Shown here piece after piece: positions 145-22,683 of a stretch of DNA of 24,262 nucleotides. Origin of the DNA: Parvularia atlantis (lineage: Eukaryota; Opisthokonta; Rotosphaerida); assembly GCA_943704415.1 (NCBI GenBank), contig CALSCO010002124.1:1-24262 (forward strand). Reading direction: 5' to 3'. Made by a program: the position numbers and the translations under genes. Each line of letters starts with the position of its first letter. Position 1 is the stretch's first letter. Below the pieces are notes generated by a model. The model searched no databases. It saw nothing but the letters and a program-made list of their open reading frames with translations, and was not told the origin of the DNA.

Positions 145-2114
145 ATGGCCCCTCCCGTTGACGTGCCCGCGATGGACGCCGCCTCGCCCTTCCTCAGCAA
201 CGCCGCGCCCGCCGGCGCCGGCGCGGCCCGCGACGTCGGCATCCTGGCCATGGTGCGGCGCGGCGAACGTGGCACGTCAGCGCGGTTCCGACGCGCGGCC
301 CACAGGAAATCTACTTCCCGGCGACGTACGTGCGCCAGGCCGAGCTCGAGCAGGCCGACGGCGTGGGCGCGGGCAAGTACACCATCGGCCTCGGCCAGAC
401 CAACATGGCCTTCTGCGCCGACAACGAGGACATCAACTCGATGGCCCTCACCGGTGCGGCTGTTCCTCGCTCTCTGCGCCAACGCGGTGGCTCACGCGAA
501 GGACGCGCACAGCCGTGCGGTCGCTCATGCTCAAGTACAACGTGTCATACAGCGACATCGGGCGCCTCGAGGTCGGCACGGAGACGATCCTCGACAAGTC
601 CAAGTCGGTCAAGTCGGTCCTGATGCAGCTCTTCGAGGCGAGCGGCAACAGCGACGTGGAGGGTGCGCATCCGGCGGTGTGCGTCGCACCGCCAGCACGG
701 GCTCACACGCGCGCGGCGCCGCAGGCATCCAGAGCACCAACGCGTGCTACGGCGGCACCGCCGCGCTGCTCAACACGGCCGCCTGGGTCGAGAGCTCATC
801 GTGGGACGGCCGCCTGGGCCTCGTTGTCGCGGGCGACATCGCCGTGTACGGCACGGTGGCGGCGCGGCCCACCGGCGGTGCGTCTGCCGTCAGTGCGCGG
901 GCGTGCCGCGGCGATTGCTGAGCGCGCACCGCAGGCGCTGGCGTCGTCGTTATGCTCGTCGGCCCGAACGCGCCGCTTGTGCTTGAGCCGGGCCTGCGCG
1001 CGAGCCACATGGAGCACGCGTACGACTTCTACAAGCCCGACTTTTCGTGTGAGTACCCGACCGTCGACGGCAAGCTTTCCAACAGCTGCTACCTGCGCGC
1101 GGTCGATAACTGCTACACGCGCTACTGCAAGAAGGTGCAGGCCAAGGTGCGTGCCCGTCGCGCTGCGGCCTCGCCGCCGCCGTGTGAGTGGCTCACTCGC
1201 GCTGCCGCCGTCGCCAGGAGGGCAAGGAGTTTGATCTGACCAAGGCCGACTACGTCGTCTGCCACACGCCCTACGTCAAGCTTGTGCAAAAGTCGATCTC
1301 GCGCATGGTGCGTGCCACGGCGCTGCTGCTGAGCGCGCGTGCGCGCGCGCGCTGACGCACCTGCGCTGCGCTCGCGCAGATGTACATGGACTTTGTGCGC
1401 AACCCCGACCGGCCCGAGTTCCAGGACGCGACCATTCAGGCCTTCCGCTCGATGGACCCGTCTGACACGTACGCCAACGCCGACCTGGAGAAGGCCTTCA
1501 GGGTGCGCGCGTGCTTGCTTGTTGGTCGGGTAGGCGCGTGGGCACTGACGGCGCGCACGCAGAAACTGGCCGACCCGATCTTCGCGGCCAAGATGGCGCC
1601 GGGGACGATCGTGCCGACCAACATTGGCAACGCCTACTGCGCGTCGCTGTACGCGTCGCTGGTGTCGCTGCTGTCCAACGTGCCGTCGGCGGAGCTGGTG
1701 CGCTGCGCCCGCACGCACCGCGCACGCAGGGCTGACGCGGTGGCGCGCCAGGCGGGCAAGCGCATCGTCATGTTCTCGTACGGCAGCGGGCTGGCCGCGA
1801 CCATGTTCTCGGTACGCGTGCGCGGCGCGGCCGACGACATTGTCAAGAAGGTGCGCGCGCGTGCGAGTGTCCGCCCTCGGCACCGGCTAACGCTGCCCGC
1901 CGCGCCCGCGCAGCTCGACGTGACGGCGCGCCTGTCGAAGCGCGTGGCCGTGCCCGTGGATGACTACATCAAGACGATGAAGGCGCGCGAGGCCGCGTTC
2001 AACAAGCCCTCGTATAAGCCCGCGGCCTCGACGGCGCACCTCGAGCCCGGCACGTACTACCTCGCGGAGGTCACAGCGCAGTACCACCGCCTCTACCAGC
2101 TCAAGCAGGACTAG
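145..2114 (+). CDS. ERG13: hydroxymethylglutaryl-CoA synthase, ten exons
   Basis: The enzyme condenses acetyl-CoA with acetoacetyl-CoA to give HMG-CoA, the step before HMG-CoA reductase in the mevalonate and sterol pathway. Joining exons gives a full-length family member. It begins [10 protein letters not shown], passes through [15 protein letters not shown] and [15 protein letters not shown], and ends [10 protein letters not shown]. The three catalytic residues of the family are visible: Glu in VGTETILD (about 575), Cys in [10 protein letters not shown] (about 745) and His in CHTPYVKLV (about 1265). Nine introns are inferred, the first at 253-305, and all start GTGCG. Each was placed where the next conserved block resumes in another frame. 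The ATG at 145 is chosen because the short N-terminus runs straight into the conserved VGIL block. The gene is convergent with RDH54, 92 bp away. The product is expected to be cytosolic, since no targeting signal is evident. Confidence 0.95.
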
Positions 2115-2206
2115 CGCGGCGCGGCCTTTCCTCCCGGACCTCCCTTCCTTGTTGCGTGTGTACGACGTTCGCTCTCTGCTGCAAACATACTCGCTCGCTC
2201 ACTCAC
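2115..2206. other. convergent 3' intergenic region with CTCG/CTCA repeats
   Basis: This 92-bp space lies between the stop codons of HMG-CoA synthase and RDH54. It must hold both 3' ends. A short imperfect tandem repeat of CTCG and CTCA units runs at about 2190-2212 and continues into the last codons of RDH54. Confidence 0.5.
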
Positions 2207-5200
2207 TCACTCGACTTTTTCGACGCGCCGCTGGAAGACGAACGAGACGAGCTTGCGCCGGAGGAGGTCGCTGACGGCAAAGTCCTGCGGCGGGTGGTCA
2301 GCCAGTCGCGGCGAGGCGGCAGCGCGTGCCTCCATCTCGCCGTCGGGTGCGTCACCCGAGAAGTGCTGCCTGAGAGCGCGCGCGCGCGCGGTGTCGTCAG
2401 CACGCGTTGCCGCGGCGTTGCGGGGCACGCGCATACCACTCCATCAGCTCGCTGATCGAGATGCCGTGCGTGCGCTGCGGCGCGAGTCAACGAGGCGTAC
2501 AGGGGAGCGCGCATGGGGCACCTTCTGCCGCTTGGCGGCCGCGGTGGGCGCGTCGCCCTCGGCCGACTGCTGCTGGCAGGTGCAGTCGAGCAGATCGTGC
2601 GTGAGGCACGCGGTGTCGTCGTGCAGCGTGAACAGGTCGCGCAGCTCGTCCTGCGAAAAGTTGTTCTTGCTGCTCGGTCCATCGCCCATCACCGTCGCGC
2701 TCAGCGCGAGCTTGGTCAGCTGGCGCTGGTACATCTTCTCCTCGAGCGTGCCGACCGTGAGCAGGCGGAAGATGGTCACGGGCCGCTTCTGGCCTGCGCG
2801 CACGCGTGAGCCTGTCTGTGCCTCACAGCGCGAAACGCGCACCGTCGCGCCAGATGCGCGCCATCGCCTGCGCGTCCTGCTCGCGGCGCAAAGTGTTAGC
2901 GCGCAAAGCCAGCGAGCGCGCCGCGCACCGTCGCCGGGTTCCAGTCGATGTCAAACAGCACCAGGCGCGATGCGCCGACGAGGTTGAGCCCCGTCCCGCC
3001 CGACTTGGCCTGCGCGTTGTTCAGCGCTCCTTCTCTCGCCCGGCTTTGCATGCGCCGCGCACCGACAACAGGAAGAGCGTCGCGCGGGTGTACGGCGAGT
3101 TGAACTGCTCGACCAGGTGCTGTCGCCTCTGCACGGGCGTGCTGCGCCAGCCCGGGGGCAACTCATTGGCGGCCTGTGACCCCGGCGTGCCTGACGCACC
3201 TGCCATCGAGCCGGATGTACTCAAACTTGTCGGCGTCGCACACGCGCGCGATCATGTCGAGCGTCTGTGTGAAGTTGGACACGATCACGACCTTGTTCTC
3301 GGCGCTCTCGGCGCGGATCGCGAGCAGCAGCGCCCGCAGTGCGACCAGTTTGCCTGCGCGCTGGCGTCAAACATGCGACCGGCCACGGTGGTCCGTGCGC
3401 ACTACTCGTGCTGTCGACCCCGTCAGCGCACGCCTGCGCAAAGTCGCCTGGGATGCCCTTCATGATCTGCTTGTGCAGCGTCGTGAGCGCGTCCGCGTCG
3501 ACGTTGCGCAGGTCCTCGTCGCCCTCGGCGTCGGCGGCCGAGTGGCTCGCCGCTCTCGCCTGCCGCGCCGCGTCTCTGTCCAGCGCTGTCGACCTTAGGC
3601 AAAGCGCGCGCAGACACACCTGGATCGTCTGGTGCAGCAGCAGCGGCGAGTTGCACAGCTTACGCAGGACGAGGATGCCCAGCAGCTGCGAGTTGGCCGA
3701 CCCGTCCGAGAAGCACGACCTGCGCGGTCGTCAGCAAGAGAGCACACGCGCGCACACCAGACGCACCGGATGACCGACGTCTGCAGGATCTCGCGGTACA
3801 CGCGCAGCTGCACCGGCGAGGGCGGGCAGAAGAGGACCATCTCCGTCTTGGGCGGGAGGTACTTCTGGTTGATGTCCTGTGTCCGCCGCAGAACAAAGAG
3901 CCCCGTCAGGCGCGTGAGCTGCGCGGCCGGCGCCTCGTCAGCGCCCATGCTCACACGTCGCATGCGCGCACCTCGGCTGAGCGCGACGCGCCCAGCTGCA
4001 CGTCCGCGGGCGAGCACGACTTCTGGCGCGACTCGACGATCGGGTCCTCAAACACGCGCTTGAACTGCTTGTAGTCGCCTGCGTGTGCGCTCTTCAGGCC
4101 ACAGGAGTCACAGCAGGCTTGCGCGCGCGCGCGCGCACCGAGGATGCCCGGGTTGACAAAGTCGACCATGGCGAAGAACTCGGCCAGGTCGTTCTGGATC
4201 GGCGTGCCCGAGAGGATCACACGCCGCCGCGACGCCATCTGCTGCAGGGCCTGTGCGACCGTCAGCACCACGCGCCCCGCGCACGACGCGCGAGGGGGTG
4301 AGGGGCGCGCGCACGAGTGCCGTCTTGATGTTGGAGTTCTTGAGCCGGTGCCCCTCGTCGCACACGATCAGCCCGATGCCGGCCTTGGCGAGCACGTGCG
4401 CGGCCTGGCGGAACTGCGCCATGCCCGCAATGTCAGCCACGCGGAGGCGGCTGGCGACGGTGTCAGCTCACGCACGCACCCGTTCGTAGCCGATGATGAT
4501 GACCGAGAAGATGCTCGAGAGCGTAAAGTCGCCGATGTCGGTGTTGGGCTGCACGGCAAACGTCTTGCAGCGCTCGTCGCCCAGCCACTTCTTGAACTCC
4601 TTCTGCCAGTTCTGCGCACCGCCGTCAGCCGGGCGACACTGCTCCTCGGCCGTGCGCGAGCACCTGCACGAGGCTGGCGGGGCACACGACCAGCGCGCGC
4701 TTGATCGTCGACCCGCCGCCGTGCGGGTTCTGCTTGAGCAGCGTCCAGATGAGCGCTGGCGCGACAGTCAGCACGCGGCACAGCATGGGAGGGGGGCGAA
4801 GCACACAGATCGTCTGCAGCGTCTTGCCCAGGCCCATCTCGTCGGCCAGGATCGCGCCCGCACCCTTGAAGTCCTTCAGCTCCATCACGCACTCGTACAT
4901 GAACTTGACGCCCTCACGCTGGTGCAGCCGCAGGCACGAGGCGATGTACGGGTCGACGACGACATCGACAACGGGCCTGCGGCCGTGTCAGCGCTGTCAG
5001 CGCGCGCGGGCGTGCACGGGCGCGCAAGAGGCGCACGTCTTGCCGACGGGCGCAGGGCGCGGCATGACGAGCGCGTCCGGTGCGGTCGCGTCGTGGCGCG
5101 GCTGCACGACGACAGCGGCGGGATTGGCGGCACCGCTGCGGACAGGCGTGTGAGCGCGCGCGTGCGACGGGCGGTGTACCCGTGGCGGCGCACGCCGCCG

Positions 5201-5900
5201 AGCCGACGCCGGACGACGAGGGCGACTTAAACGCGGCGGCGGGTCTCGGCTGCGCGATCGCTTCACCTCAGCGTGGCGCACGCACACCGGCCACGGACGC
5301 ACCGGCGGCGGCGCGGGCGCGAGCGACGAGCCCGTGCCGGACTTTGACAGGGAGATGAAGCACGCGCCGCGCTTGAACGTGTCGTCGTCGATCGTGCCGA
5401 CGACCTCGAGCTCCTTGGCCGAGAACGAGAGCGACTCGCCCACCTTGAGCTTGGCAAGCTGGTCGGCGGGGTAGGTCGTGCACTTGCCGATCCTGCGGGG
5501 CGTGATGTGAGGGCGGATGACGGAGGGCGCCGCAGCATCGAGGGCGCGCGCACTCGTTGGCGTCCGAGTCGAGCAGCTTGCACGAGCGCTCGGCCACGAC
5601 CAGCACGCCGTCGCCGTCCCAGCTCTTGTGCTTCTTGGTCGAGGTCTTGCGCCACACGACGCTGAAGTATAGCAGCCGCTGCTGCGGCTCGTCCTCGTTG
5701 CCCGCGCTCACGTTGACCCGCAGTGGCGCCGTCGTCGTCAGCGGGCGGAACGTCGGGTGCGGCGGCCGCTTCATCGGTGGCGGCGTGGGCGGCGCGTCCT
5801 CGGCGGCGGCGGGTGACGCGGCGGCGGCGGCAGGCGGCGACGCGACGGGGCGCGGTGCGTAGAAGGCGCGCTGGGCCGAGGGCGTCTGCGAGCGCCGCAT
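2207..5900 (-). CDS. RDH54: RDH54/RAD54B-type Swi2/Snf2 DNA translocase
   Basis: Rdh54/Tid1 is a dsDNA translocase that works with Rad51 or Dmc1 in homologous recombination and strips Rad51 from dsDNA. The N-terminal block [20 protein letters not shown] (about 5670-5610) and [12 protein letters not shown] (about 5065) are typical of RDH54/RAD54B rather than RAD54. Next come [17 protein letters not shown], Walker A/motif [86 protein letters not shown] and [12 protein letters not shown]. All helicase motifs seem intact. The C-terminus has a small CTC element and ends [11 protein letters not shown]. Many short introns are needed. The start at 5900 ([10 protein letters not shown]) is preferred because RAD54 in this window also starts MRRS. 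An in-frame ATG at 5942 would add 14 residues and leave only 18 bp to the upstream gene. The product is nuclear. Confidence 0.9.
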
Positions 5901-5960
5901 TCCGTGGCGCCACCGAAGCGCGCCAAAACTGATGATCATCATCTAGGCCTAAACTGCAGT

Positions 5961-8797: not shown

Positions 8798-9871
8798 ATG
8801 GCGTCCGATGAGGAGCAGCATGGCCGCGATGAGGCGCCAACATGGCCGCGGCATGGCGGCGACGTCAACCTCAGGCTCCCGCGCCTCCGCGCGCTCGCCG
8901 CGGCCGACGCGGGCGGGGCGGCCGGGGCCGGCGCCGACACGACGCGCTTTGTGTGCGTCTTCCGCGACGCGGCGCTGCCCGGGCTGAGCGCCGTCGTGCT
9001 CGAGCGCACGGGCGCGGCCGGCCGCGACTCGCTCGACCGGCAGCGGCAGGCCGCGGCGCAGATCCAGACGACCCGCGCGCTCCGCGACAAGCAGCACGTG
9101 CTGGACGCACAGCGTGCGCGCGACGAGGCCCTGCGCACGGCCACGCAGGCCGCGGCGCAGCGGGCGCAGCGCGAGCACGACCAGGCCGCGCTGGCGGAGC
9201 TGCAGCGGCGGCACCAGAACGTGCGTCGCTTGCCTGCGGTTGCTGTCGTTGTCTCACCACGCCGCGCCAGTACCTGCGCCAGCGCCACGAGCTCGAGGCG
9301 CAGTTGGCGCGCGAGCAGGCCGCAGTCGACGCCGAGACGCGCCGCCAGCGCGAGCAGCTGCATGAGCGTGAGACGCAGCGCGACCTCGAGTATCTCCGCC
9401 GTATCGTCGCCGGCAGCACGCCACCGACATCGGCGCTGGCTGCTGCCGAGGCCGCCGCGGACGGCGACGCGCAGGCGGGCGGCCACCGCCAGCGCGCGTA
9501 CGAGCAGGCCCTGGCGCGCATCGAGACGGCGAGGTGGAGTCGGTCGTGCTCCGCGACGGCCGTGTGTCTCACCGGCGACGGCGCGCGCAGGACGCAGGCG
9601 CTGGCCGAGCTCGAGGCGCGCACGTACCTGGGCGACGTTGCGCGCGGCATCCGCAAGCGCGAGATCGAGCGTGAGAGCGCGGCGCGGCGGCGGGCGCTCG
9701 CGGCCGAGCGGCAGGTGCGGTCGCGTGCCGCAAGACTTGCAGACCGCGAGCCTCACGGCGCCGCCGCCCCGCCAGAGCCGCAGCGCAGCGACCGAGCGGC
9801 GCGACTACTTCCTCGCCGGGGTCAACGTCGAGAAGGCGCGCACAGCCAAGGCATTGTCTGTGTTTGCTTGA
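8798..9871 (+). CDS. coiled-coil protein, function unknown
   Basis: I do not recognise the family. The ATG at 8798 opens MASDEEQHGR, followed by a short globular-looking segment with RFVCVFRDAALPG. A long Glu/Arg/Gln/Ala-rich heptad-like region with LRDKQHVLDAQRARDE, AALAELQRRHQN and YLRQRHELEAQLAREQ follows and should form coiled coil. Inferred introns are near 9221-9270 (donor GTGCGT), 9534-9590 (donor GTGGAG, in frame, so less sure) and about 9715-9748 (short). The C-terminal exon encodes TERRDYFLAGVNVEKARTAK and ends VFA with TGA at 9869-9871. It is on the same strand as FAN1, whose ATG starts 7 nt after this stop, so the two transcripts must overlap or be joined. The last intron, and so the C-terminus, is the weakest part of the model. 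Confidence 0.6.
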   Translation: MASDEEQHGRDEAPTWPRHGGDVNLRLPRLRALAAADAGGAAGAGADTTRFVCVFRDAALPGLSAVVLERTGAAGRDSLDRQRQAAAQIQTTRALRDKQHVLDAQRARDEALRTATQAAAQRAQREHDQAALAELQRRHQNVRRLPAVAVVVSPRRASTCASATSSRRSWRASRPQSTPRRAASASSCMSVRRSATSSISAVSSPAARHRHRRWLLPRPPRTATRRRAATASARTSRPWRASRRRGGVGRAPRRPCVSPATARAGRRRWPSSRRARTWATLRAASASARSSVRARRGGGRSRPSGRCGRVPQDLQTASLTAPPPRQSRSAATERRDYFLAGVNVEKARTAKALSVFA

Positions 9872-9878
9872 CAACTCG

Positions 9879-12800
9879 ATGAAGCGCGGAGCTGTCTCGC
9901 CCGCGCAGTCGCCCACGCGCTCGCCGTCGGTCGCGGATCTGTTCCGGAGGCAGCGCGCGCGGCTGCAGGACGTCGCGGCCGACGCGGGCGCGAGCATGGA
10001 TGTGGGGGCGGATGCGGATGCGGGCGTCGCGTGTCCGGCGTGCGGGCGCGATGTGCCGCTGCAGCGTATCAACCTGCACCTCGACCGCGACTGCGCCGTG
10101 CTCGGCACCGTGCTACCCGAAGCGGTGGCCGTGCCCAACGTGGTCGACGTGCCCGACGTGGTCGCCGTGCAAGACGTCCAGGCGGTGGCGCTACCAGCTG
10201 CACCTGCACCTCTCGCTCTCTCAGCGGTCGCCCCACTGGCCGCACCAGCATCGGCCGAGCAGCGCTACTACGAGCGCCACTTTGCGCTCATGGTGCAGGC
10301 CGCGCTGCAGCACCACGCCGCGCTGTTTGACCCGGCCGAGCTGGACGCGCTGCGCTCGTTCCCAGACATGCCGCGTGCGCCCCGCTGCCTCCCGTGTTCG
10401 CTGCACCCTGGCTGACGGCACACACACACACAACAGCCGACGCCCAGCGCCTGTTCATCCGACTGTCGCAGCGCCAGGGCCGCTGGTTCCGCGTCGCGCA
10501 ACTGCGCTACCGCGACATCGGCGACGTGGCGGCTGCGGCGGCCGAGCTCGTGCGGCGCGGCCTTGGCGCGAACGGTGCGTGAACCGCGCACACAGCTGCG
10601 CCGTGCTGACGACGCGCTGACGACGCGACGCAGAGCAGCACCTGAGCGACATCGGCACAGCGCTGCGGCTGCTCACGGCGCCCGAGCTGCGGCAGCTGGC
10701 GCGCGAGCTGCGCGTGCCCGGCAAGGCGCTGGGCGGTGCGGGCAAGGTCGGTGTACGCGGACGTGCGCATGTGCGGCATCGCCTCGCACCCCTGACCGCG
10801 ACGTCGCAGGACGCGCTGCACACGGCCATCCGCGAACACCTGAGCTCGCAGCCCGTGCTGGTCGGCTCGCCGCGCAAGTCGACGATCAAGCGCGTGCTGC
10901 GCGCGACGGGTGTGCCCGACCACGCGAGCGTGCGCGCGTGCTCAGCAACGGGCAGGCGCCATCGTCGGGCTGTCTGCCGAGGCGCGCGAGATCGTCAAGC
11001 GCGTCGAGCTGCTGTTCTTCGCCAACACGACGCAGGAGGAGCGCACGATGACGACAATGGTGCAGCGCGGTCTGTGCGCGCACGCGGGCTGCCGTTGACT
11101 GAGACGGCCGCCGTGCAGGTACTCGTCGACAAGGACTTGCTCGTCTACCCAAAGTACAGCGTCATCCGCTCGCGGCCCGTCTTTGCCGACCGCCCGCAGC
11201 TGCTCGCGTACGAGCAGGCGCTGCGCGTCGAGGCCGAGCTGACGGACCTGCTCGAGGGTGCGTCGCCTGCTCCGTACGCCTGCTGGACCAACACGGTCGT
11301 AGCGCTGGGCGGCTCGCACGCGCACAGCGAGGCGTCTTCGCGGCGCTGGACGAAGCGGTCGGCAGCCGCGGCAGCAGCAGCAGCAGCGCGCGACGGCGAC
11401 AACGTCGGCGAGGGCGAGAGCTACGCGAGCGCGTTCCAGTCTGCCGGCGCACGGGACGCCGCGCACACGCTCTGCACGCGCGTGGCGGCGCTGTGGCGCG
11501 AGTGCGTGCGCTCGCCGGACGCCGCCGGGGCCGCGAGTGGGCGCGACGGCGCGAGCTACTTCCTGCGCCGCTTCACCGCGCCGTGGGTGTACACGCGCGC
11601 GGCGTCGATGGCCGCCGAGGTGCGCACGGTCGCTGCATCATCGCTACACCAACTCACACGCGCGCATGTCTGTCACAGGTGCTCGAAAAGCTGCATCGGC
11701 ACGACGAGGCGGTGGAGCTGCTGCGCGAGCTGCTGGGCCAGCGCGACTTTTGCCGCGGTCTGCGGTCCGTCGTCTCTCAGCACACGCCGCGGCTTTGACG
11801 CGCTGCTCGCAGCGGACACTGGTGGGATCGGCTGTCGCTGGACGTGCTGCACCACCAAAAGGAGCGCGGCACGGCGCACCTTGTCTGCATCGAGGGGCTC
11901 GGCGACGCTGACGTGCGCACAGGTACGTTGGCGCTTGCTGCCTTCTGAGCCTGCGTCCGATGCTGACTATAGCTGTTGCAGGGCACCGCCAGGCCCTCAC
12001 AAAGCGGCTGCGACGCATCGAACGAAGCAAGCAGGTCGCGAGCAAAGTGCGCTCACCCGCCAACCGCAGCGGTGCTGGCGGCGTCATGCTGGCCGCGCAG
12101 CCCGTGCACGTCACGATCAAGGGTGTGCCTGTGTGCTGCTGGTGCACCGCTGGGCTTACCGTACCCGGCAGGCCGCCTGGTGTCGCTCTCGGCCGTTGGG
12201 TACGGCGTGGAGTACCTCGGCTGCGACGGCGCCGTGTGCCGCGTGGAGGAGCTCGCGCTGCAGTTCTACACGCGCCTGGAGCGCGACAATACACTCAGGT
12301 GCGCGGGTGTGATCTCGCTCTCGTCCTGATGCTCACGCGCGGTGGCAGCACGGCGCGCGACGCGGCCGGTATCCCGCTCGAGACGGGCTGGCGCGGCCTG
12401 CACGCCGAGAACGGCATCGTCACGACGCTGTTTGGGCTGCTGTTTTGGGACGTGCTCTTTGCGGCGCAGCCGGACGTGTTCCAGACCGAGTACCAGAGTG
12501 CGCATATGGCAGGGCTCGCTTGCGACCACGCGGCTCATGCGGCGTCCAGTCGCGCCGCTCGACCTCGTCACTGACGCCTTCTACCTCACGCGGCGCGACG
12601 CGGTCGATGCGCGCCTGCGCCAGATCGAGAACGGCGAGGCGGCGGCGCTCATCACGGCCGCAGGCGACCAGCACCGCGGCGAGCTTTGCGTCGGCGTCAA
12701 CTGGGCCGCGTACGCGCGCGAGACGCTGCTCGAGATCGCCGCGTGCCTCGGCGGGCCCGTGCTCGCGTGCATCTGCCGCCTGCTGGCCGAGGACTATCGC

Positions 12801-13665
12801 CACCGCTGCAGCGGCATGCCGGATCTGGTGCTGTGGCACGCGGCCTGGCAGCGCTGCCGGGTGCGTCGCCCTGTCGCCCTGTCGCCGCAACGGCCGTGCT
12901 GATGGCTACGTCCAGTTTGTCGAGGTCAAGAGCACGAACGACCGCCTCTCGGACCGCCAGGAGGTGTGGCTCGAGGCACTGTGCGAGCACGGGGTGGACG
13001 CGCAAGTGTGCCACGTCGACGGTGAGACCGCCTGCGCGCTCGCGCGCCCGTTGACGCCGTCGGTGTCGCAGCCGCCAAGCGCTTCGAGGCGACGACCATG
13101 CCCACGCCGGACGTGGCGCAGACGCCAGGAGTGCCGTCGCCCGGCAGCTCCGCGTCCGCGTCGACGGGGACAACGATCGAGTCGGTGCTGCGGCTCGTGC
13201 TCGGGCCAGACGGCGACGAGTACGCAGCACCGGACGAGACGCCGCAGCAGACGCTGCCGTCGCACCCGGGTCCGGTCGACGTGCAGGTGGTCGGGCACCA
13301 GTTTTGCTGCGCGGCTGCGGCTGCGACAACGACAACCGTGGGTGACGCGGGTACGTGCTGCGGGCTTCTGGTCCCGGACCGCGCCGTGCGCCTGGAGCGC
13401 GAGCACGCAAACGTGGTCGACCTGAACGCGATCTTGGTAGTGGACGAGCTCACGCAGCGCGCGCTCGGCCACGTGCCGCGCAAAATCGGTGCGCCGTGCT
13501 CGCATCGCCCGTGCTGTGCCGTGCGCTGACGCGCGGGCGGCCGCAGCGCTGCTGCTGGCACCGCACCTCGACGCCGGCACGGTGGCAGCGACGGGCTACG
13601 TGCGGCGCGCGTACGGGCGGCGCAGCGCGTTTGTGGCCCTGTCGCTCGAGCGTATCGCGGACTGA
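9879..13665 (+). CDS. FAN1: FAN1-type structure-specific nuclease with C-terminal HIRAN domain
   Basis: FAN1 is a nuclease for 5' flaps and interstrand crosslink repair. Domains in order: a UBZ4-like finger CPACGRDVPLQRINLHLDRD (about 10032-10094; the pattern Cys-x2-Cys...His-x3-Asp-Cys fits ubiquitin binding); the FAN1 N-terminal domain with YYERHFALMVQAAL and LFIRLSQRQGRWFR; a SAP-like block LTAPELRQLARELRVPGK; the TPR-like middle with FLRRFTAPWVYTR and LEKLHRHDEAVELLRELL; then GRWWDRLSLD-type and VEELALQFY blocks. The VRR-NUC domain follows, with LHAENGIVTTLFGLLFWDVL, GMPDLVLWH, FVEVKSTNDRLSDRQ and VCHV. Asp of PDL and Glu/Lys of EVK, the catalytic residues of the fold, are present, as is the upstream Glu in HAEN. 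An intron at 12861-12915 sits just before FVEVK. The usual FAN1 end at VCHV is followed by intron 13022-13071, which joins in frame to about 65 linker residues and then a HIRAN-like domain (see separate entry). The ATG at 9879 gives MKRGAVSPAQS; no better start is seen. Nuclear. Confidence 0.92.
13278..13665 (+). other. HIRAN-like domain at the C-terminus of FAN1
   Basis: After splicing, this part of FAN1 reads VDVQVVGHQF, a short Ala/Thr-rich loop, VRLEREHANVVDLNAILVV, ALGHVPRKIALLLAPHLDAG and TVAATGYVRR, ending LSLERIAD. This follows the HIRAN pattern of VVG-x-x-[FY], L-x-REP-x-N-x-x-D-x-NAI, GHLPR, LAP-x-[IL]D and a final G-x-V strand. An intron at 13489-13546 (GTGCGC...CAG, with a GCTGAC branch-like site) rejoins HVPRKI to ALLLAPHLD in frame. 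HIRAN domains in HLTF and Rad5 bind ssDNA 3' ends, and plant FAN1 proteins are known to carry a HIRAN domain at the N-terminal side. Confidence 0.82.
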
Positions 13666-13716: not shown

Positions 13717-16700
13717 CTATGCAGTCTTGATCGGGTCGGGCGACTGCGTCGAGAACACGAGCGAGACGATGTCGCCCGCCGAGTCGCGCAGGATGGGGTC
13801 GTCGATGTCGTTCATCTCGGAGATGTGGTGCCACTGCGCCATGTCGCTCTCCTCGGCGCTCGAGATGCGTACGTCCAGCGGCAGCCTGCACACGCGTCTG
13901 AGCAGGGCGCGCGCGCACACACGGCACGCCGCACGCACTTCTCGCCGCGCTTGCAGCGCTCGCAATTGAAGCTGTCGTGCGTGTCGCTCAGCGTGTCCTC
14001 CTTGAACGTGAACAGGTCCTTCAGCTCGGACGCGGTGAAGTGGCGCTCGACGTCCTCCTCCTCGTCCACCACGACGCTGCTGAGCGACTGCTTGTGCGCC
14101 TGGCGCTGGAAGATCTTCTCCTCAATTGTGCCCGTCGCGACCATGCGGTAGATGAACACCTGCGCGGCTCGATCAGCGAGCCAGGCAGGCAGGCGCAAAC
14201 GCGCGCCTTCTTCTTCTGACCGTCGCGCCACACGCGCGCCATCGCCTGGCCGTCGTTCGCCTGTGGCCGTCGCAGGGGCGTCAGCCGGCTCCCAAGGGCA
14301 CGCAGCACAGCGACGCACCGGGTTCCAGTCCGGGTCAAACAGCACCAGCCGGTTTGCGCCGATCAGGTTGAGGCCGCAGCCGCCGGCCTGCACACGAGGT
14401 CAGCGTGCAACGTTCACCGGCTACGACCGTCCCACTGCGCGCCTTGGAGCTCAGCAGGAAGGCAAAGTCGCGGCTGTCCTTGTCGTTGAATCGGTCGACG
14501 AGCTTCATGCGCTTGGCGATTCCGAGCGAGCCGTCGAGGCGGACGTAGCCGTACTTGCGTGCGCGGCACATGAGCTCCATCATGTCGAGCGTCTGCGTGT
14601 AGTTGGACACGAGGACGACCTGCGCGAGCGCATGAGCGACCGTGCACCCGCGTGACGCAGACACACGCGCACGCGCCTTGTCGCTCGTCGTCGTTCTGAT
14701 CCACGCCAGCATCGTGTCGAGCACCTGGAATTTGCCCGACATCTCGGGCCGGAACGAGAGCTCGGGCCGGTACGCCTGCGGCGAGAAGCCTGCGGGCGCC
14801 GGCGCTTCAGCGCATCAGTGCAGCACGAGAAAAAGTGCACACCTGGCGGGAACAGCTCGAAGGCGTCCTCGAAGCCCTCGGCGCGCTCCTTGCACTTGTC
14901 GAAGATGAGCGCGGGGTCTGCGCGACGCGCCTGGTCAGCACGACCGCAGCCGCACCCTCCGCCACGGCCACGCGCACGGTTGGCGATCTTCTTGAGCGAC
15001 GTAATCGCCGTCAGCGTCGACGTGCCCGCGCCGGCGATGACCTTCTTGACCGACTTGCTCTTGACAAAGTTCTTGTACATCGTCTTCTGCATCTCCGTGA
15101 GGCGGCAGAACACGACTTGGTCCACTGCGACCGCGCGCGAGTGCGCATGAGCCGCAACCTTCATAATGCCAAGCGCGCGCACGCACCTTTGACCGGAAGG
15201 TACTTTGACAGGATCGTGGACGTGCGGCGGATCGTGAACATCTGCGCGAGGCCGACGAGCTGGGCGCGGCGGCTGAGCAACCCACGAACATGCGGCACGG
15301 GGCGCGGTGCACCTCGTTCAGGCGCTCCTGGCCCTTCTTCTGCTCGTCCTCGGTCGCGAGCGAGTCGCGCGCGCGCAGGATGGGCACCTCGAAGCGCCGG
15401 TGGAACTCGTTCGACGAGCCTGCCAACGCGCGCGCTCAGCCGCACACGGCCATCACACACGCGTGCGTGTGGCGCACCCAGCACGCCCGGGTTGACAAAG
15501 TTGAGCAGGCTGAAGTACTCGGTCAGGTCGTTCTGGATGGGCGTGCCCGAGAGGATGATGCGGCGCGTCGTCTGCAGCTGGTTGAGCGCCTGGAAGGTCT
15601 GGCTGGCCGAATTCTTGAGACGGTGCCCCTTGCGCGGCGGCGACGGGGGGTGAGCGCGCACACGTGCACGGTGCGCGCGCCCGGCACACCTCGTCGCACA
15701 GAACGAGGCCCACGGGCTTGCTCTGAAGGATGTTGGCGTAGAGGCGGAACGTCTCGTACGAGATGATTAACACGGCAAACTTGGGCTCCTCGGCCTCGCC
15801 CGCGCGGCGTTTGAGCCACGACGTCTCGCTCAGCCCGATAAAGTTCTAAAGCGCGCAGCGTCAGCAGGCAACGCGAAACGAAGCAGGGTGCAGCGCACGT
15901 TCAACTTGGCCTTGATCTCCTCGCGCGAGCCGCCGTCGATCGGGCACGCGGGCAGCTTGGCGCCGAGCCACTTGCTGATCTCGCTGTACCAGTTCTGCAC
16001 ACGCACGCCGCATTAGTATGAGGCGCGCATGTGCACGAGCGGCGCACGTTGACGAGACTCGACGGGCAAGCGATGATCGCGTTGTCGGCGATCGAGCGGC
16101 CTGTCGCCCGCCGATGAGGTCGGCCATGCACGTGCACATGCGGACGGCCGCACCGTAGGGCCCCTGCTTGAGCAGCGTCCACATGAGCGTGATGCACTGC
16201 AGCGTCTTGCCGAGGCCCTGCCGCGCGAGACCGTTCAGCCGACGCGCGCAGCCGCGTGTAGTCAGCGGCGCACCATCTCGTCGGCCATGATGCAGCCGCG
16301 CCCGTTGGGGATCTTGGCGCCGCTGAGACAGTCGTACATGAACTTGACGCCCTCGCGCTGATGCGGCCGGAGCACCTTGGTGAGCACGGGGTCGACGACG
16401 ACTGCACACACACACACACACGAGCGCGCGTGAACGGTGCGTCGCTGCGCACCCCCCACTGCCGCGCACCGTGCACTTTGACCGGCTCCTCGTCGCTCTT
16501 GGGCACGATCTCGTTCTCCATGTCCTCGCACAGCTTCTGCAGGTACTCGGAGACGTCGGCGGGGTCGTCGGGCGCGTACAGCACGAGCGCGTTCTCGTCG
16601 TCGGGCGAGTGCAGCGCACGCCGCAGCGGGTCCTTGAGCGGCTTGCTGAACTTGACCTTGCCTGTCACGCACCCCTCGGTCACGCACGGGCCAAGGGAGG

Positions 16701-17408
16701 GCGCAAGAGAGGGCGGTGGTGGCGCACCAGTGTAACCGTCGATGGGCACGCGGAACGGCTTGGACAGGATGCGCTTGATGATGTCCTCCTGCGCACGGCC
16801 CGCGACGTCAGCGACGTCGGCCAAGCCGCATCGGCCCGCAGTGCGGTGCGCACGTGCGTCAGCCGCCGCGTCGCCGTCGCAAGCTTGCCGCCAGCGCCGG
16901 GCGCCGATGCCGCGTTGACGGCCGCGGGGGCGCTGGCCGCGGCGCGCGTGACGCGGGCGGGCGCGGGCGGCCCGGCCATCAGTGACGCCTTGCTGGACGG
17001 CGCGGAACGTCTGCGCGGACGCGGCTGTGAGTGGCGCGCGGCCGCCGCACAGGTGGCTGCGGACGCACGGCCGTTTGCGCGGCGCCCCCTCGCCGTCCTC
17101 GTCGTCGCCATCGCCGTCGCCGTCGCCGTCGCCGCCGCGCGGCCGCCGGTTCTCGCCGCTCTCCTCGCCGTCGTCGTAGTCGCCGTCGTCGTCCCCGCCG
17201 CCACCGCCCGCGTCGTCGTCGACGGCCGTGTCGTCACTGTCGCGCCGGCTGCTGTTGCTGCTGCTGCCGCCGCGCGGCGCCGCGGCCGACGTCAGCGGCT
17301 TGAACGGCGCGCGCGGCGCGGCCCCCGCGAGGCTCGGCGCGTGGCTGCGGCGCTGCGGGTGGGCGGCGGCTGAGCGTGCGCCACAGACGGCTGGGGTGGC
17401 CGCACCAT
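13717..17408 (-). CDS. RAD54: RAD54 DNA repair and recombination translocase
   Basis: Rad54 is the Swi2/Snf2 dsDNA translocase that partners Rad51 in homology search and strand exchange. The predicted N-terminus is [20 protein letters not shown], with the first intron (17353-17405) directly after the ATG. An acidic Asp/Gly/Glu repeat region follows (about 17070-17220). Then come [39 protein letters not shown], Walker [13 protein letters not shown] (split by intron 16218-16273), [118 protein letters not shown] and [19 protein letters not shown]. The Cys-rich [12 protein letters not shown] near the end matches the RAD54 C-terminal zinc-binding element. It ends [11 protein letters not shown]-like at 13717. 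Motifs look intact. The ATG is 43 bp after the TRM6 stop on the same strand. Nuclear. Confidence 0.93.
16404..16422. repeat. short (CA)n repeat in a RAD54 intron
   Basis: About nine CA units on the plus strand fall inside the intron between the VKVHG exon and the [10 protein letters not shown] exon of RAD54. The repeat is therefore non-coding in the model. Confidence 0.6.
17095..17145. repeat. hexanucleotide-like repeat encoding Asp-Gly tract in RAD54
   Basis: On the plus strand the units CGCCGT and CGCCAT repeat at about 17101-17135. On the coding (minus) strand they give alternating Asp and Gly inside a longer acidic region of the RAD54 N-terminus. Such a repeat may vary in copy number between strains. 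Confidence 0.6.
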
Positions 17409-17451
17409 CGGTTCAGTGGCGCTACCGGAGCGCGCGCAAAACGGTCTGGCG

Positions 17452-19228
17452 TCACACAGCCACACGTTTGCTCGGGCCCTCGCCGTCTTCGCCCTCCTGG
17501 TCGTCGTCGTCCTGCTCGGCGTCGTGCACCTTGGCGGTCTCCGCCGGCGCCGCATCGGCAGCGTCGGCCGGCTCGTCGGGCTGCGCGGGCGCGGCGGCAG
17601 GCTCGGCGGCGACGGGCTCACCGCGCAGAAGGCGGTGCGCGCGATCGAGGCGTCGTGCGCGCTCGTCGGGGCTCGCGGCGAGCAGCGCCGTGCCCGAGAG
17701 AACAAAGCCTGAGGCGGCCGACGTGCTCATGAGCGGGTGCGTCCGCCCCGGCAGCACCTGAATCTCGCGCGTCCACGTCTCGGCCAGCTGCGTGTTGACC
17801 GCCCAGCCCTCGCGCCGCAGCACGCCCATTGCCGCGCCGAGCGGGCCCGCCGACGGCGAGAACAGCGCGAACGACGCCGAGCCCATGAGCAGCGGCAGCA
17901 GCGCGCGGGCCAGCTCGGTCGGGTCGAAGCGCGACGCGGCGACCAGCCTTGTGCGCAAAGTGGCGTGAGACCCACACGCGCAGCGCCACGCACGCGCGGA
18001 CCCGTCAAAGCCGCTCGCGAGCGCGAGCGCGCGCGTCTGCTGCTGTACCTCGAGGCGTGTGAGCTTGGCGCGCAGCTCGGCAGGCCTGGCCTGCGCGGCG
18101 TCCGTGGCCCCTTCTAGCTGCTGTCGCACGTCTGGCGCGGCCGCGGCGTAAGCGGACACGTCATAAACGCTAGGCGCACGCACGCTCGACAGTGCGCCCG
18201 GCGCGCGCCCACTCAAGCGAGCGCAGGCAGGCGAGGTGGTCGGGCGGCAGGTTGAGGTATTTGACGCTCTCAAAGTGCGCGTCGTGGGCGCACTGCATTG
18301 CGACAACGAGCCCCTACGCGCCGCACCGTCCGTCGGCCACCCCCGTTCGGTGCAGTGCCTGCCGCACCTGTCCGCCGAGCCGCTCGAGGCACGCGCCGAC
18401 GAGGAGGCCCTTGACGTCGTCGACGACGAGCAGGCGCGCGCCCGCCCGCACGTTAGCCAGGTGCAGCAACTGCGCGAGGCTGTCGAGGCGGAGTTCGCTG
18501 GTGCACGCCGCGTGAGCAGCGATGGCGCACGCGGGCGCGCACGCACAGGATGCTCGACGGCGCCTTGGCGAAGAGGTGCGTGGCGAGCACGCGCGCGGTC
18601 GGCCGGAGCAGCGTGACGAGGGCGAGGTACTTGGCGCGCTTGCGCTTGAGGTACTTGGCCTGCGCAAACTCGGTCTTGCCGGCGAAGGTGGCGCTGCTGT
18701 TGACGAGCTGCTTGACGATCTCCTGCGGGCGTTGCTGAGCGAGCGCGGGGCGGGAGTCACGTAAGCGCTCACGCACGTCGCCCGCCACGCCCTGCGCCCT
18801 CATTGCCGCGATCGCCGTCTGGTCGAGCGCCTGCGCGCGGTTGTCGTCGACGAGGCCCTGGTTGTTGGCCGTCGCAGGCACGTCTGGTGAGCGTACGACG
18901 TCGGCCTTCGCATCGGGCCCTGACGCGCGCGCGCGACGCACACTCGGCGACGCGGCCGACGTCAGCATCTGGGGCCGCCGCCGGGCGCAGCGTCTGGCCG
19001 TGCAGCTCGTACGCGCGGCCCCAGGGCAGGCCGATGAGGAGCGCGCCGTCGATACGTCCGTGCCTTCCGAGCGCGATCTTGCTGCGTTCATGCGGCGCAG
19101 CAGGTGAGCGCGCCCGATTGCGCTGCAGCGGGGCCAATCGCGACGCACGCGCCCGGCTGCGCCCGCACGAGCCGCTCGGTGCCGTCGAGGAGGCGCACGA
19201 GGACCCAGTCGGCGTTCGCGACGGCCAT
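17452..19228 (-). CDS. TRM6: tRNA (adenine58-N1)-methyltransferase non-catalytic subunit TRM6
   Basis: TRM6 (GCD10) pairs with the catalytic TRM61 to make m1A58 in tRNA, including initiator tRNA, in the nucleus. The ATG at 19228 opens MAVANADWVLVRLLDGTERL. An intron after QPGA joins to KIALGRHGRIDGALLIGLPW and GRAYELHG, the TRM6 N-terminal barrel. A second intron joins GRVAE to the conserved VDDNRAQALDQTAIAAM block. The family signature IVKQLVNSSATFAGKTEFAQ followed by KYLKRKRAKYL is clear at about 18730-18640. Later blocks are LVVDDVKGLLVGA, FESVKYLNLPPDH, TWTREIQVLPGRTHPLMSTS and GFVLSGTAL. The tail is acidic with a final PSKRVAV. No S-adenosylmethionine motif is seen, as expected for the non-catalytic partner. 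It starts 68 bp from the divergent AP endonuclease gene. Confidence 0.92.
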
Positions 19229-19296
19229 GTGTATGGCACTCGTGAAGTTAGTCAATGCACACTTACGCGCACGCCACCCCGCGCCACACGGATCCC
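19229..19296. promoter_or_regulatory. 68-bp divergent promoter region, TRM6 / AP endonuclease
   Basis: Only 68 bp separate the two divergent start codons, so both genes must share promoter elements, unless the true starts lie further inside one gene. No TATA box is seen. The stretch at 19232-19262 is less GC-rich than its surroundings (GGCACTCGTGAAGTTAGTCA is part of it). Confidence 0.5.
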
Positions 19297-21211
19297 ATGG
19301 CGGCGGACGCGCGCGCCGCCGACCTGGCCGATCTCGCGACGCTCGCGGTCGCGGCCAAGGCCGAGCAGGACGCGGCGCAGTCAGCCGCGGCGACCGTCGC
19401 GGGGCTGCGCACGGCCGGCGCGCGGGTGCGTTGTGGCGCGTGCGGTGCGCGCGCCCGCCGCGGTGCGAAAAGGCTCAAACAGCGGTCGCAAACGCGACGC
19501 GCCACGACGCCCAGAGCACGACCCGCGTCAGCGCGCGCGCGCGCAAGGCGCCGACGGAGGCGGTCGGTGCGACGGCTACGACGGCGCCGTCCACGCGCAA
19601 GCGCAAGAGCGAGGTGCGCCGGCGGTGTCGCGCGGGATGGCGCCGCAACGGCCGCGCTGATACGGCGCTTGCACAGGACGGCGCGGTGACGGGTGAGGCG
19701 GCGAGCGCGGACGCGCCGGCCAAGGGCGCGCGGGCCAAGAAGCCGCGCGCACCGGCTGTGGATGACGCGGAGCCGGTGGCGCCCGCCAAGCCGCGCAGCC
19801 GCGCGCCCAAGGCCAACGGCGCCGACGCGGACGCGGCGAGCGCGATGGACGTGGACGCGGACGCGCCCGCCGAGAAGGCCGGAAAGGCGCCGCGGGCACG
19901 CAAGGAGAAGCGCGCGGCCAAGGCCAACGGCGCGGGCGCGGACGAGGACGACGGCGCAGCGGGCGCGGCAGTGTCGAGCGTGCCGCCCGGGATGCCGACC
20001 AACACGACGATGCCCAAGGAGTACCACTTCGAGCCCGTGCCCGCGGGCTGCATCAAGATCGTCTCGTACAACGTCGCGAGCCTGTTTGCGGCGCTGAGCA
20101 AGGGCTTCAAGGTGTGCGCCGTGGCCGCACGCCGCCGCCGTGCACGTCGCTCACGCCGCGCCTCAGCCCTACATCGTGGCTGAGAACGCCGACATCGTGT
20201 GCTTGCAGGAGACCAAGCACAAGGACGACGCGCTGCCGCAGAACCTGCTCCAGGGCATCATGCGCGAGACCTGGTCGGCGCCCGAGGTTAAGAAGGGCTA
20301 CAGCGGCACGGCCGTGCTCAGCAAGGCGCGTCTCTACCTCTGATGCAACCGCGCGTGCGCTAAGAGCGCACCCCCGCAGATCAAGCCGCTCAACGTCAAG
20401 AAGGGCATCGGTGTGCCGCGCTACGACGACGAGGGCCGCGTGATCACGCACGAGTACGCCAACTTTTTCCTCGTGGCGACTTACGTGCCAAACTCGGGTG
20501 CGCGCGCTCCCCTCTCGCGCCGGCCGGTGCAACCGCTCACACCCGCGCACCCTCACAGGCCAGAAGCTCGACCGCCTCGGGTACCGCCAGGAGTGGAACG
20601 CGGCGCTGCTCGAGTACCTCAAGACGCTCGACAAGGCCAAGCCGGTCATCTGGACCGGTGCGCTCGCGCCCTGCCGCGCTTTGTGTGGCCTGAGACCGCA
20701 GAGCGCGCCCAGGCGACCTCAACGTCTCGCACCAGGACATCGACCTCGCCCGGCCGGCCACCAACAAGCGGTGCGCGTTCGCACGCACAAGCGCAGCGTG
20801 GTGATCTGGCGCGCTCGGCAGCACCGCCGGCTTCACGCGCGAGGAGCGCGACGACTTTGAGAAGGTGCTGGCCAGCGGCTTTGTCGACACCTTCCGCCAC
20901 TTCAACCCGGGGAAACAGTACCAGTACTCTTGTGCGCGGCGCACGCGACCGGCCGACCGCCCGCCGCTGACCACGCCAACGCGCGCAGACTGGGGCATGC
21001 GGTCCGGCGGCCGCTCCAAGGGCATCGGGTGGCGCCTGGACTACTTTGTGGTGTCGGAGCGGCTGCTGCCACGCGTCAAGGCGTCGCTGATCCGCGCCGA
21101 GGCGTACGGCGCGTCCGACCACGGTGCGGGCGGCCGCAGCGTCTCGCTCATGCGCTGACAGACTGTGCGGCAGTGCCGATTGTGCTCGTCCTCGAGGACC
21201 AGCCGGCGTAA
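19297..21211 (+). CDS. APE1: ExoIII/APE1-type AP endonuclease
   Basis: The enzyme cuts DNA 5' to abasic sites in base excision repair. The N-terminal third (MAADARAADLADLATLAV onward) is Ala/Lys-rich with KRKSE and repeated AKANGA segments, likely disordered and nuclear-targeting. The catalytic domain starts at CIKIVSYNVASL (Asn, about 20053). It continues with DIVCLQETKHKDD (metal-binding Glu), GYSGTAVLSK, YVPNSG, GDLNVSHQDIDLARP, AGFTREERDDF, SYWGMRSG, GIGWRLDYFVVS and SDHVPIVLVLEDQPA, ending at TAA 21209-21211. All ExoIII catalytic motifs are present. Nine introns are inferred, one of which (20326-20379) begins GC rather than GT. There is no C-terminal GRF zinc finger as in fungal APN2, so the protein is closer in form to animal APE1. 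The first intron (about 19434-19480) has an uncertain acceptor. The ATG at 19297 is the first in-frame one with good context. Confidence 0.92.
20326..20379 (+). other. probable GC-AG intron in AP endonuclease gene
   Basis: The exon ends AGC AAG (20325), the intron starts GCGCGT and ends CCCCGCAG (20379), and the next exon starts ATC AAG CCG. The join reads LSKIKPLNVKKGIGV, as expected for the APE1 family. Without splicing, a TGA at 20341-20343 stops the frame. A nearby GT (20330-20331) gives the wrong phase. Confidence 0.7.
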
Positions 21212-21332: not shown

Positions 21333-22283
21333 TCACGGTCGCCGGCGCAGGCGGTTGATCCACATGTAGCTCGCAAAGGTGATGTGCAGCTGCCGGAACC
21401 ATACCATCTGCGTCGCGTGGGCGTAGGCCGCGGCGCGCGCCCGCTGGAAGTGGGCCTCCGGGGCGAAGACGATCGCTGCTGTAGCGTCGGTCGCGTCCGG
21501 TGCGAGCACGCACGCCCACGCCTCGGCCACGCTCAGGTACCGCCGCCACACGGGCACGCTCACGAGCTCCCACGCGGGCACGCCCGCCGCGCGCGCCGCA
21601 TCCCTGCCGCCGTGCCGTTGAGTGCTGCTGCCGACACGAGGCGCACAAGCACACGCACCGCGCGGCGCGCCCCGTGGCGATGTGGTTCGGGTGGCCCGTA
21701 ATGCCGCGCTCGTCAAACGTGAGCACCTGCCGCGCGCGCCGCTGTGATCAGCTTGGTCGGGCGGCGCGGTTGAGCGCGCACGAGGTCGATGCCGTGCCGC
21801 GCGACGTGCTCACCAACGATGCGTGCGGCCCTGGCCTCGTCCCACGACTGGCGCAAGCCGTCCTGCAGCGCGCTGCGCGACAATCAGCAGTGCACGTCCC
21901 GGCGCGAAGCCCGCCACGCACGGGTCGTCGAGCACGGCCACGTGCGACGGTGGCACGCCCAGCAGCGCGCACGCCACCTCCATCTCCTTGGCGCGCGCCG
22001 CGCCGATGCCGTCCGCGTTGCCGTTCGACAGGCACAGCACGTGCACGTCTGCGCCGTCGCCAAGCGCCAGCAGCCCCGGGCCGAAGAACATGCACTCGTC
22101 GTCCGGGTGGGCCACGACGAGCAGCGCGCGCGGGCGGCGCGCCAGGTGGCGGCGCAGCAGCCGCTCGGCCAGCGGCTCGCGCTCGGCCCGCCGCGCGTAC
22201 TGCGCCCGGGCGCGCGCGAAGACCGATGCGGTGACGAGCAAGGCGAGCGCCGCGATCAGGACGCAGATGGCCGCCGTTACCAT
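21333..22283 (-). CDS. GPI12: N-acetylglucosaminyl-phosphatidylinositol de-N-acetylase (PIG-L)
   Basis: This enzyme removes acetyl from GlcNAc-PI, the second step of GPI-anchor synthesis, on the cytosolic face of the ER. The ATG at 22283 opens MVTAAICVLIAALALLVTAS, a single membrane segment as in PIG-L. Next come the PIG-L/LmbE zinc-site motif LLVVAHPDDECMFFGPGLL, LCLSNGNADGIG and HVAVLDDP. An exon with LRQSWDEARAARIVGEHV follows, then FDERGITGHPNHIATG (the second zinc-site histidine), and the end MVWFRQLHITFASYMWINRL. Three introns are inferred (about 21894, 21750 and 21625-21680), each restoring the frame between these blocks. Active-site residues look intact and length is normal for the family. 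Confidence 0.93.
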
Positions 22284-22683
22284 CACAAGGGGTAGGTCCT
22301 ACGGTAAGCACAAAACACACGAGGGCCGGGTGCATCTCTCTGCGACTCGAGGTGGCTGCGCCTTCTGCGGGCCCACTGTCTCGTAGCTGGAGCACCTCTG
22401 CGACGTCATGTACTCGTCCGGGCCCAGTCGTGGTAGAGCTTGCTGGTGACGCTGCCCGACAGACCACTCGACGGTGCGGCGCACGGCAACCGCACACAAC
22501 GCCACAGGCAACACAAACAGCATCCCCGGCACCCGCACAGCAAGCGGCGAGCCGCACGGTGGGCCGCACGGGCCACACGAGCCACACGAGCCGCCCGCCC
22601 GCCGCGACCAGCCCGTCACGCATCTCCCGCCATGCTGGCACGCGCGGCCGTCCACCTAGGCGCGTAACGCCATGATGGAATAC

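Follow-up and report, generated by a model that had tools for sequence, protein, structure and literature searches.

A predicted FAN1 nuclease of Parvularia atlantis with a HIRAN domain behind its VRR-NUC domain

FAN1 is a repair nuclease that gives protection from DNA crosslinks and, in Huntington's disease, acts as a modifier of trinucleotide-repeat expansion. The human protein is described with UBZ, SAP and VRR domains (PMC4402529), and in plants the combination of HIRAN and VRR-NUC is widespread (PMC5704218). The latter paper, in the part available, also places HIRAN-VRR-NUC in human FAN1, while the domain list of the former, within its accessible text, gives no HIRAN for the human protein. 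In Arabidopsis FAN1 (AT1G48360, Q5XVJ4) HIRAN is located between the UBZ (43-75) and VRR-NUC, i.e. at the place of SAP (PMC4402529). This order is given by the figure legend and by the position of the VRR residue K854 of 891, although one sentence of the same paper swaps the termini; the N-terminal side of plant FAN1 is also where the first-pass annotation of the DNA described here had placed HIRAN. Fungal FAN1 proteins, e.g. S. pombe Fan1, comprise the FAN1 core, SAP and nuclease domains included (PMC4045212), and fungal homologues are said to be without a UBZ in the available portion of PMC4402529. A survey of Fanconi anaemia (FA) proteins in 183 fungal proteomes reports, in the part seen, that architectures are conserved except for FANCJ and SLX4 and that early-diverging fungi have kept the FANCD2/FANCI complex; the word HIRAN has 0 occurrences in its main text as available (PMC11061109). 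Outside the FAN1 family, HIRAN stands N-terminal to the SNF2-RING part in HLTF and Rad5, and in the HLTF domain a dinucleotide of ssDNA sits between Y72 and Y93 (PMC4666394).

Here we describe a FAN1 gene in which, by predicted splicing, HIRAN follows VRR-NUC. It lies in a window of 24,262 nucleotides, by which we mean the whole stretch of DNA that was analysed. A dynamic-programming splice model predicts 15 exons and a protein of 1000 residues. When the model was fitted again with a cleaner codon table, and with the tail included in its right frame, it gave 16 exons; this second fit adds one intron of 45 nt, shifts the edges of another and leaves the C-terminal part unchanged. Across both fits the predicted introns measure 45-80 nt and the protein about 990-1000 aa. 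The features of the gene are the following:

9879-13665, plus strand: FAN1-HIRAN gene, ATG to stop (codon-usage splice model and phmmer comparison with human FAN1)
10032-10094, plus strand: UBZ-type zinc finger motif CPACGRDVPLQRINLHLDRDC (aligned weakly with human FAN1 by phmmer, the stretch scoring 8.1 bits)
10266-10561, plus strand: FAN1 HTH domain, spanning one intron (Pfam PF21315, 57.2 bits, above cut-off)
10634-10909, plus strand: SAP-like region, spanning one intron, bounds approximate (phmmer alignment to human FAN1)
11443-12001, plus strand: FAN1 TPR domain, spanning introns (Pfam PF21170, 80.2 bits, above cut-off)
12633-13020, plus strand: complete VRR-NUC nuclease domain, including the PD...EVK motif and the VCHV strand at its end (Pfam PF08774)
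12861-12915, plus strand: intron within VRR-NUC (splice model)
13022-13071, plus strand: intron between the VRR-NUC exon and the tail exon (GTGAGA...CAG, 50 nt, TTGAC inside)
13072-13277, plus strand: linker of about 69 residues, rich in Pro/Ser/Thr/Ala (translation and held-out codon usage)
13278-13662, plus strand: HIRAN domain, spanning the intron 13489-13546 (Pfam PF08797 and a separate bacterial profile)
13489-13546, plus strand: intron within HIRAN (GTGCGC...CAG, 58 nt)

In a phmmer search against solved structures the predicted protein matched human FAN1 (E 7.1e-83), with 42% of residues identical across the nuclease stretch at the C-terminus. Like human FAN1 (KIAA1018), it combines a UBZ-like motif, an HTH/SAP region, TPR and VRR-NUC. 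The Pfam VRR_NUC profile is matched at 106.7 bits over positions 4-115 of 116 (residues 712-822), and the alignment retains the nuclease residues of the human enzyme, i.e. the E of HGEG/HAEN, the D of PD and both the E and the K of VEVK, which we take to be the catalytic residues. For the SAP-like region the phmmer alignment to human FAN1 pairs, for example, LRLLTAPELRQLARELRV with LELLSAPELKSLAKTFHL, and the Pfam search of the full spliced protein gave no match to the SAP profile. A UBZ finger had been claimed as well: counted on the phmmer alignment, 10 of its 21 residues are identical to the human FAN1 UBZ, but the full spliced protein has no match to the Pfam UBZ profile, so that the claim holds at the level of the motif and lacks a profile match. 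As a motif, the finger would distinguish the window protein from fungal FAN1, which the available text of PMC4402529 describes without UBZ. Taken together, the sequence supports the reading of 9879-13665 as a gene for FAN1 with HTH, TPR and a complete VRR-NUC domain, and nuclease activity is predicted; the profile searches place these three domains together with HIRAN in one spliced frame, as expected from the initial assignment to FAN1.

The difference from human FAN1 lies behind the nuclease domain. The match to the human protein reaches residue 1013 of a 1021-residue chain, so that human FAN1 has no room for a tail like that of the window protein, where 178 residues follow VRR-NUC. The first-pass annotation had proposed that no stop follows the VCHV strand and that an intron (GTGAG...CAG, with TTGAC) leads in frame into a linker and HIRAN-like motifs. 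The VRR-NUC frame stays open to 13425 when read unspliced; the intron was recovered at 13022-13071, where its 50 nt restore the frame; and the joined frame, open from VRR-NUC onward to the predicted stop at 13663-13665, contains all the motifs named (REHANVVDLNAI, LGHVPRKI and LLAPHLDAG).

A profile search against HIRAN had been set as a test of the assignment, and it returned matches above the Pfam cut-off of 24.7 bits both for the full protein (31.5 bits, E 1.6e-7, profile positions 19-82 of 96) and for the tail alone (34.9 bits, E 1.4e-8). Before the exons were joined, the score was 17.9 bits and thus below the cut-off. The best stretch comprises residues 921-985 (13365-13617), with the start of the domain placed by alignment near 13278, and it is the one HIRAN stretch that Pfam finds in the full protein; a second HIRAN was not detected there. 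A separate profile was built from 19 bacterial HIRAN domains (19 of 21 loci, omitting L059, which has a stop inside, and L065, the weakest). Against this profile the window domain scores 19.6 bits, the best of 1000 shuffles 4.1 bits and an HLTF fragment 36.1 bits. By plain sequence search HLTF appears only at non-significant E values of 1.1-1.5, below two unrelated proteins (0.17 and 0.94), and with a longer tail no HLTF was found at E 1 or better, the only hit being an unrelated protein at 0.39. The homology to HIRAN, which we consider firm, is accordingly a matter of profiles.

Is the tail part of FAN1? Codon tables learned only upstream of the tail (822 codons for the frame scores) give the tail exons 13072-13488 and 13547-13662 scores of +29.2 and +15.0 in the predicted frame and of -75.2 to -0.1 in the other five frames of either exon, where the scores are log-odds from one small table and not probabilities of a transcript. 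Fused and split models were then compared with a table built solely from exons upstream of 12861, allowing GT-AG introns of 38-130 nt. The top model from 12916 onward is the fused one, with the intron 13022-13071 and its end at 13665 (score 62.2), while a split, in which FAN1 ends before 13098 and a separate HIRAN gene follows, reaches at most 45.6. The proposed fusion of HIRAN behind VRR-NUC therefore agrees with both the single spliced frame and the model scores.

Two adjacent genes, i.e. a FAN1 stopping close to VRR-NUC and next to it a short independent HIRAN protein, would have to use the ATG at 13098, which is the only one between 13001 and 13500. It is in frame and would give a HIRAN protein of 169 residues, and this open reading frame alone scores 40.6; moreover, the genome seems compact: the FAN1 ATG comes 7 nt after the stop predicted for the upstream gene. 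It is the FAN1 half of such an arrangement that fares badly: no ending ahead of 13098 scores above 5.0, and for the two stops that can be reached before that position (13025 and 13054) the best introns remove part of VRR-NUC. Reading on without splicing would take the VRR-NUC frame to 13425 through codon scores that are mostly negative past 13022, and a second promoter would overlap the FAN1 coding sequence or the intron 13022-13071. We thus regard two separate genes as improbable.

Some upstream exon edges vary between the model fits, and the window is assembled sequence, so that a chimera or indels might have joined unrelated genes. However, the gene body (0.75/0.50/0.89) and the tail exons (0.72/0.54/0.87 for the first, 0.79/0.55/0.89 for the second) have similar G/C content by codon position, the style of the introns is the same and a canonical intron restores the frame, which makes an assembly or sequencing artefact highly improbable. 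In our view it is quite likely that the predicted splicing yields one FAN1 protein in which VRR-NUC is followed by a flexible linker and then by HIRAN at the C-terminus. Such a fusion may still be private to the lineage or decaying.

Several further genes were found in the window:

162-623, plus strand: HMG-CoA synthase gene
about 2203-5942, minus strand: SNF2-type gene, with SNF2-rel_dom at 4625-4987 (limits from open frames and family motifs)
8798-9871, plus strand: predicted coiled-coil gene, ending 7 nt upstream of the FAN1 ATG
about 13717-17412, minus strand: SNF2-type gene, with SNF2-rel_dom at 15161-15766 and Helicase_C at 14335-14814 (limits from open frames and family motifs)
18453-19247, minus strand: Gcd10/TRM6-like gene
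about 19263-21158, plus strand: candidate gene of the endonuclease/exonuclease/phosphatase family, the match at 20805-21158 being just below cut-off (limits again from open frames and family motifs)
21810-22298, minus strand: PIG-L gene

FAN1 is thus surrounded by genes of repair type, namely the two SNF2-type genes and the endonuclease/exonuclease/phosphatase family match; by their motifs these would presumably be labelled RAD54, RAD54B and APE. No Pfam family exceeded the cut-off in the coiled-coil gene at 8798-9871. The HMG-CoA synthase gene speaks against a green alga and, like the short introns, would suit a fungus or a different opisthokont. We also considered whether HIRAN belongs to the neighbouring SNF2-type gene. 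This was ruled out, as that gene lies on the minus strand facing FAN1 and its open frame ends near 13717, while HIRAN lies in the reading frame of FAN1, on the plus strand.

For comparison, FAN1-like loci were collected from genome contigs with an alignment of the human and window nucleases, which retained 44 of 126 pattern-matching stretches. All 44 are bacterial, and in every one the reading frame stops at the VRR domain, from 2 residues short of to 14 residues past the point where the alignment ends, as against the 178 residues past VRR-NUC in the window protein. The same alignment found no loci in viral contigs, and a search with the full FAN1-HIRAN protein found no relatives in either the genome or the viral contigs. 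HIRAN is absent from all seven bacterial genomes that carry seven of the 44 loci; in the phylum of one bacterial FAN1-like locus it occurs in 21 of 296 genomes.

Plant FAN1 resembles the window protein in having HIRAN and VRR-NUC in one FAN1 together with a putative UBZ (PMC4402529, available part), but its HIRAN lies upstream of VRR-NUC, whereas the window protein has HIRAN after VRR-NUC and keeps a SAP-like region. A C-terminal FAN1-HIRAN fusion was not found in the published descriptions of FAN1, VRR-NUC and HIRAN as far as the accessible parts of these texts extend. The pairing of HIRAN with FAN1 is thus known from plants, and HIRAN behind VRR-NUC is apparently a new order. The original HIRAN paper (Iyer, 2006) reportedly describes eukaryotic proteins that unite HIRAN with nuclease domains, so that the C-terminal order may have been seen before.

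The HIRAN domain of the window shares with HLTF and Rad5 the RExxN..D.NAI and G.VP-type motifs, but differs from them in its C-terminal position and in a Val at Y93. In HLTF numbering, R87, N91, D94, N96, A97, I98, G109 and H110 are identical to HLTF, and E88 and P112 match the bacterial consensus. All of the commonly conserved HIRAN residues R87, E88, N91, D94, A97, G109 and P112 are therefore present; among the 19 bacterial domains they agree in 14, 18, 18, 19, 19, 19 and 18 cases, respectively. P89, which is P in 14 of the 19 bacterial domains, is His in the window, and at Y93, where all 19 have Y, H or F, the aromatic residue is lost. Y72, the other stacking residue of HLTF, lies outside the aligned HLTF fragment. 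The replacement of Y93 by Val lowers the claim of HLTF-like end binding, which we still regard as plausible, and leaves the claim of HIRAN homology as it is.

From what is known of the families, the UBZ would bring FAN1-HIRAN to monoubiquitinated FANCD2/FANCI at a crosslink-stalled fork, where the FAN1 core (SAP/TPR) would bind a 5'-flap or junction and VRR-NUC would cut. As the least certain step, the tethered HIRAN might grip a nearby ssDNA end, probably a 3' end on a strand that is nascent or nicked, and this grip could steady or orient the nuclease on forks and gaps where a free end is present as well. As the window protein keeps its SAP-like region, HIRAN would provide an extra contact and not a substitute for SAP. 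Whether HIRAN has such a DNA-end role within the fused protein seems to us evenly balanced.

Alternatively, the fusion may be real and HIRAN may serve for protein contact or nuclear localisation instead of DNA-end binding. S. pombe Rad8 without HIRAN stayed cytoplasmic, and restoring its localisation still did not restore the damage response (PMC4132169). The loss of the aromatic residue at Y93 points in the same direction, but most other diagnostic HIRAN residues are retained and FAN1 already acts on DNA junctions, which leaves a role in contact or localisation rather unlikely. A FAN1 that naturally has a tethered HIRAN would offer a direct means to ask if FAN1 gains from holding a second DNA end. 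We tentatively suggest, well short of a probable reading, that HIRAN joined FAN1 independently at the end opposite to that used in plants, uniting the reading of ubiquitin, flap and free end in one chain. Two HIRAN positions, one in plants and one in the lineage of the window, would indicate repeated selection for a link between FAN1 and HIRAN. Independent joining, if true, would speak for DNA-end sensing as something that FAN1 generally requires and for which animals would use a separate partner.
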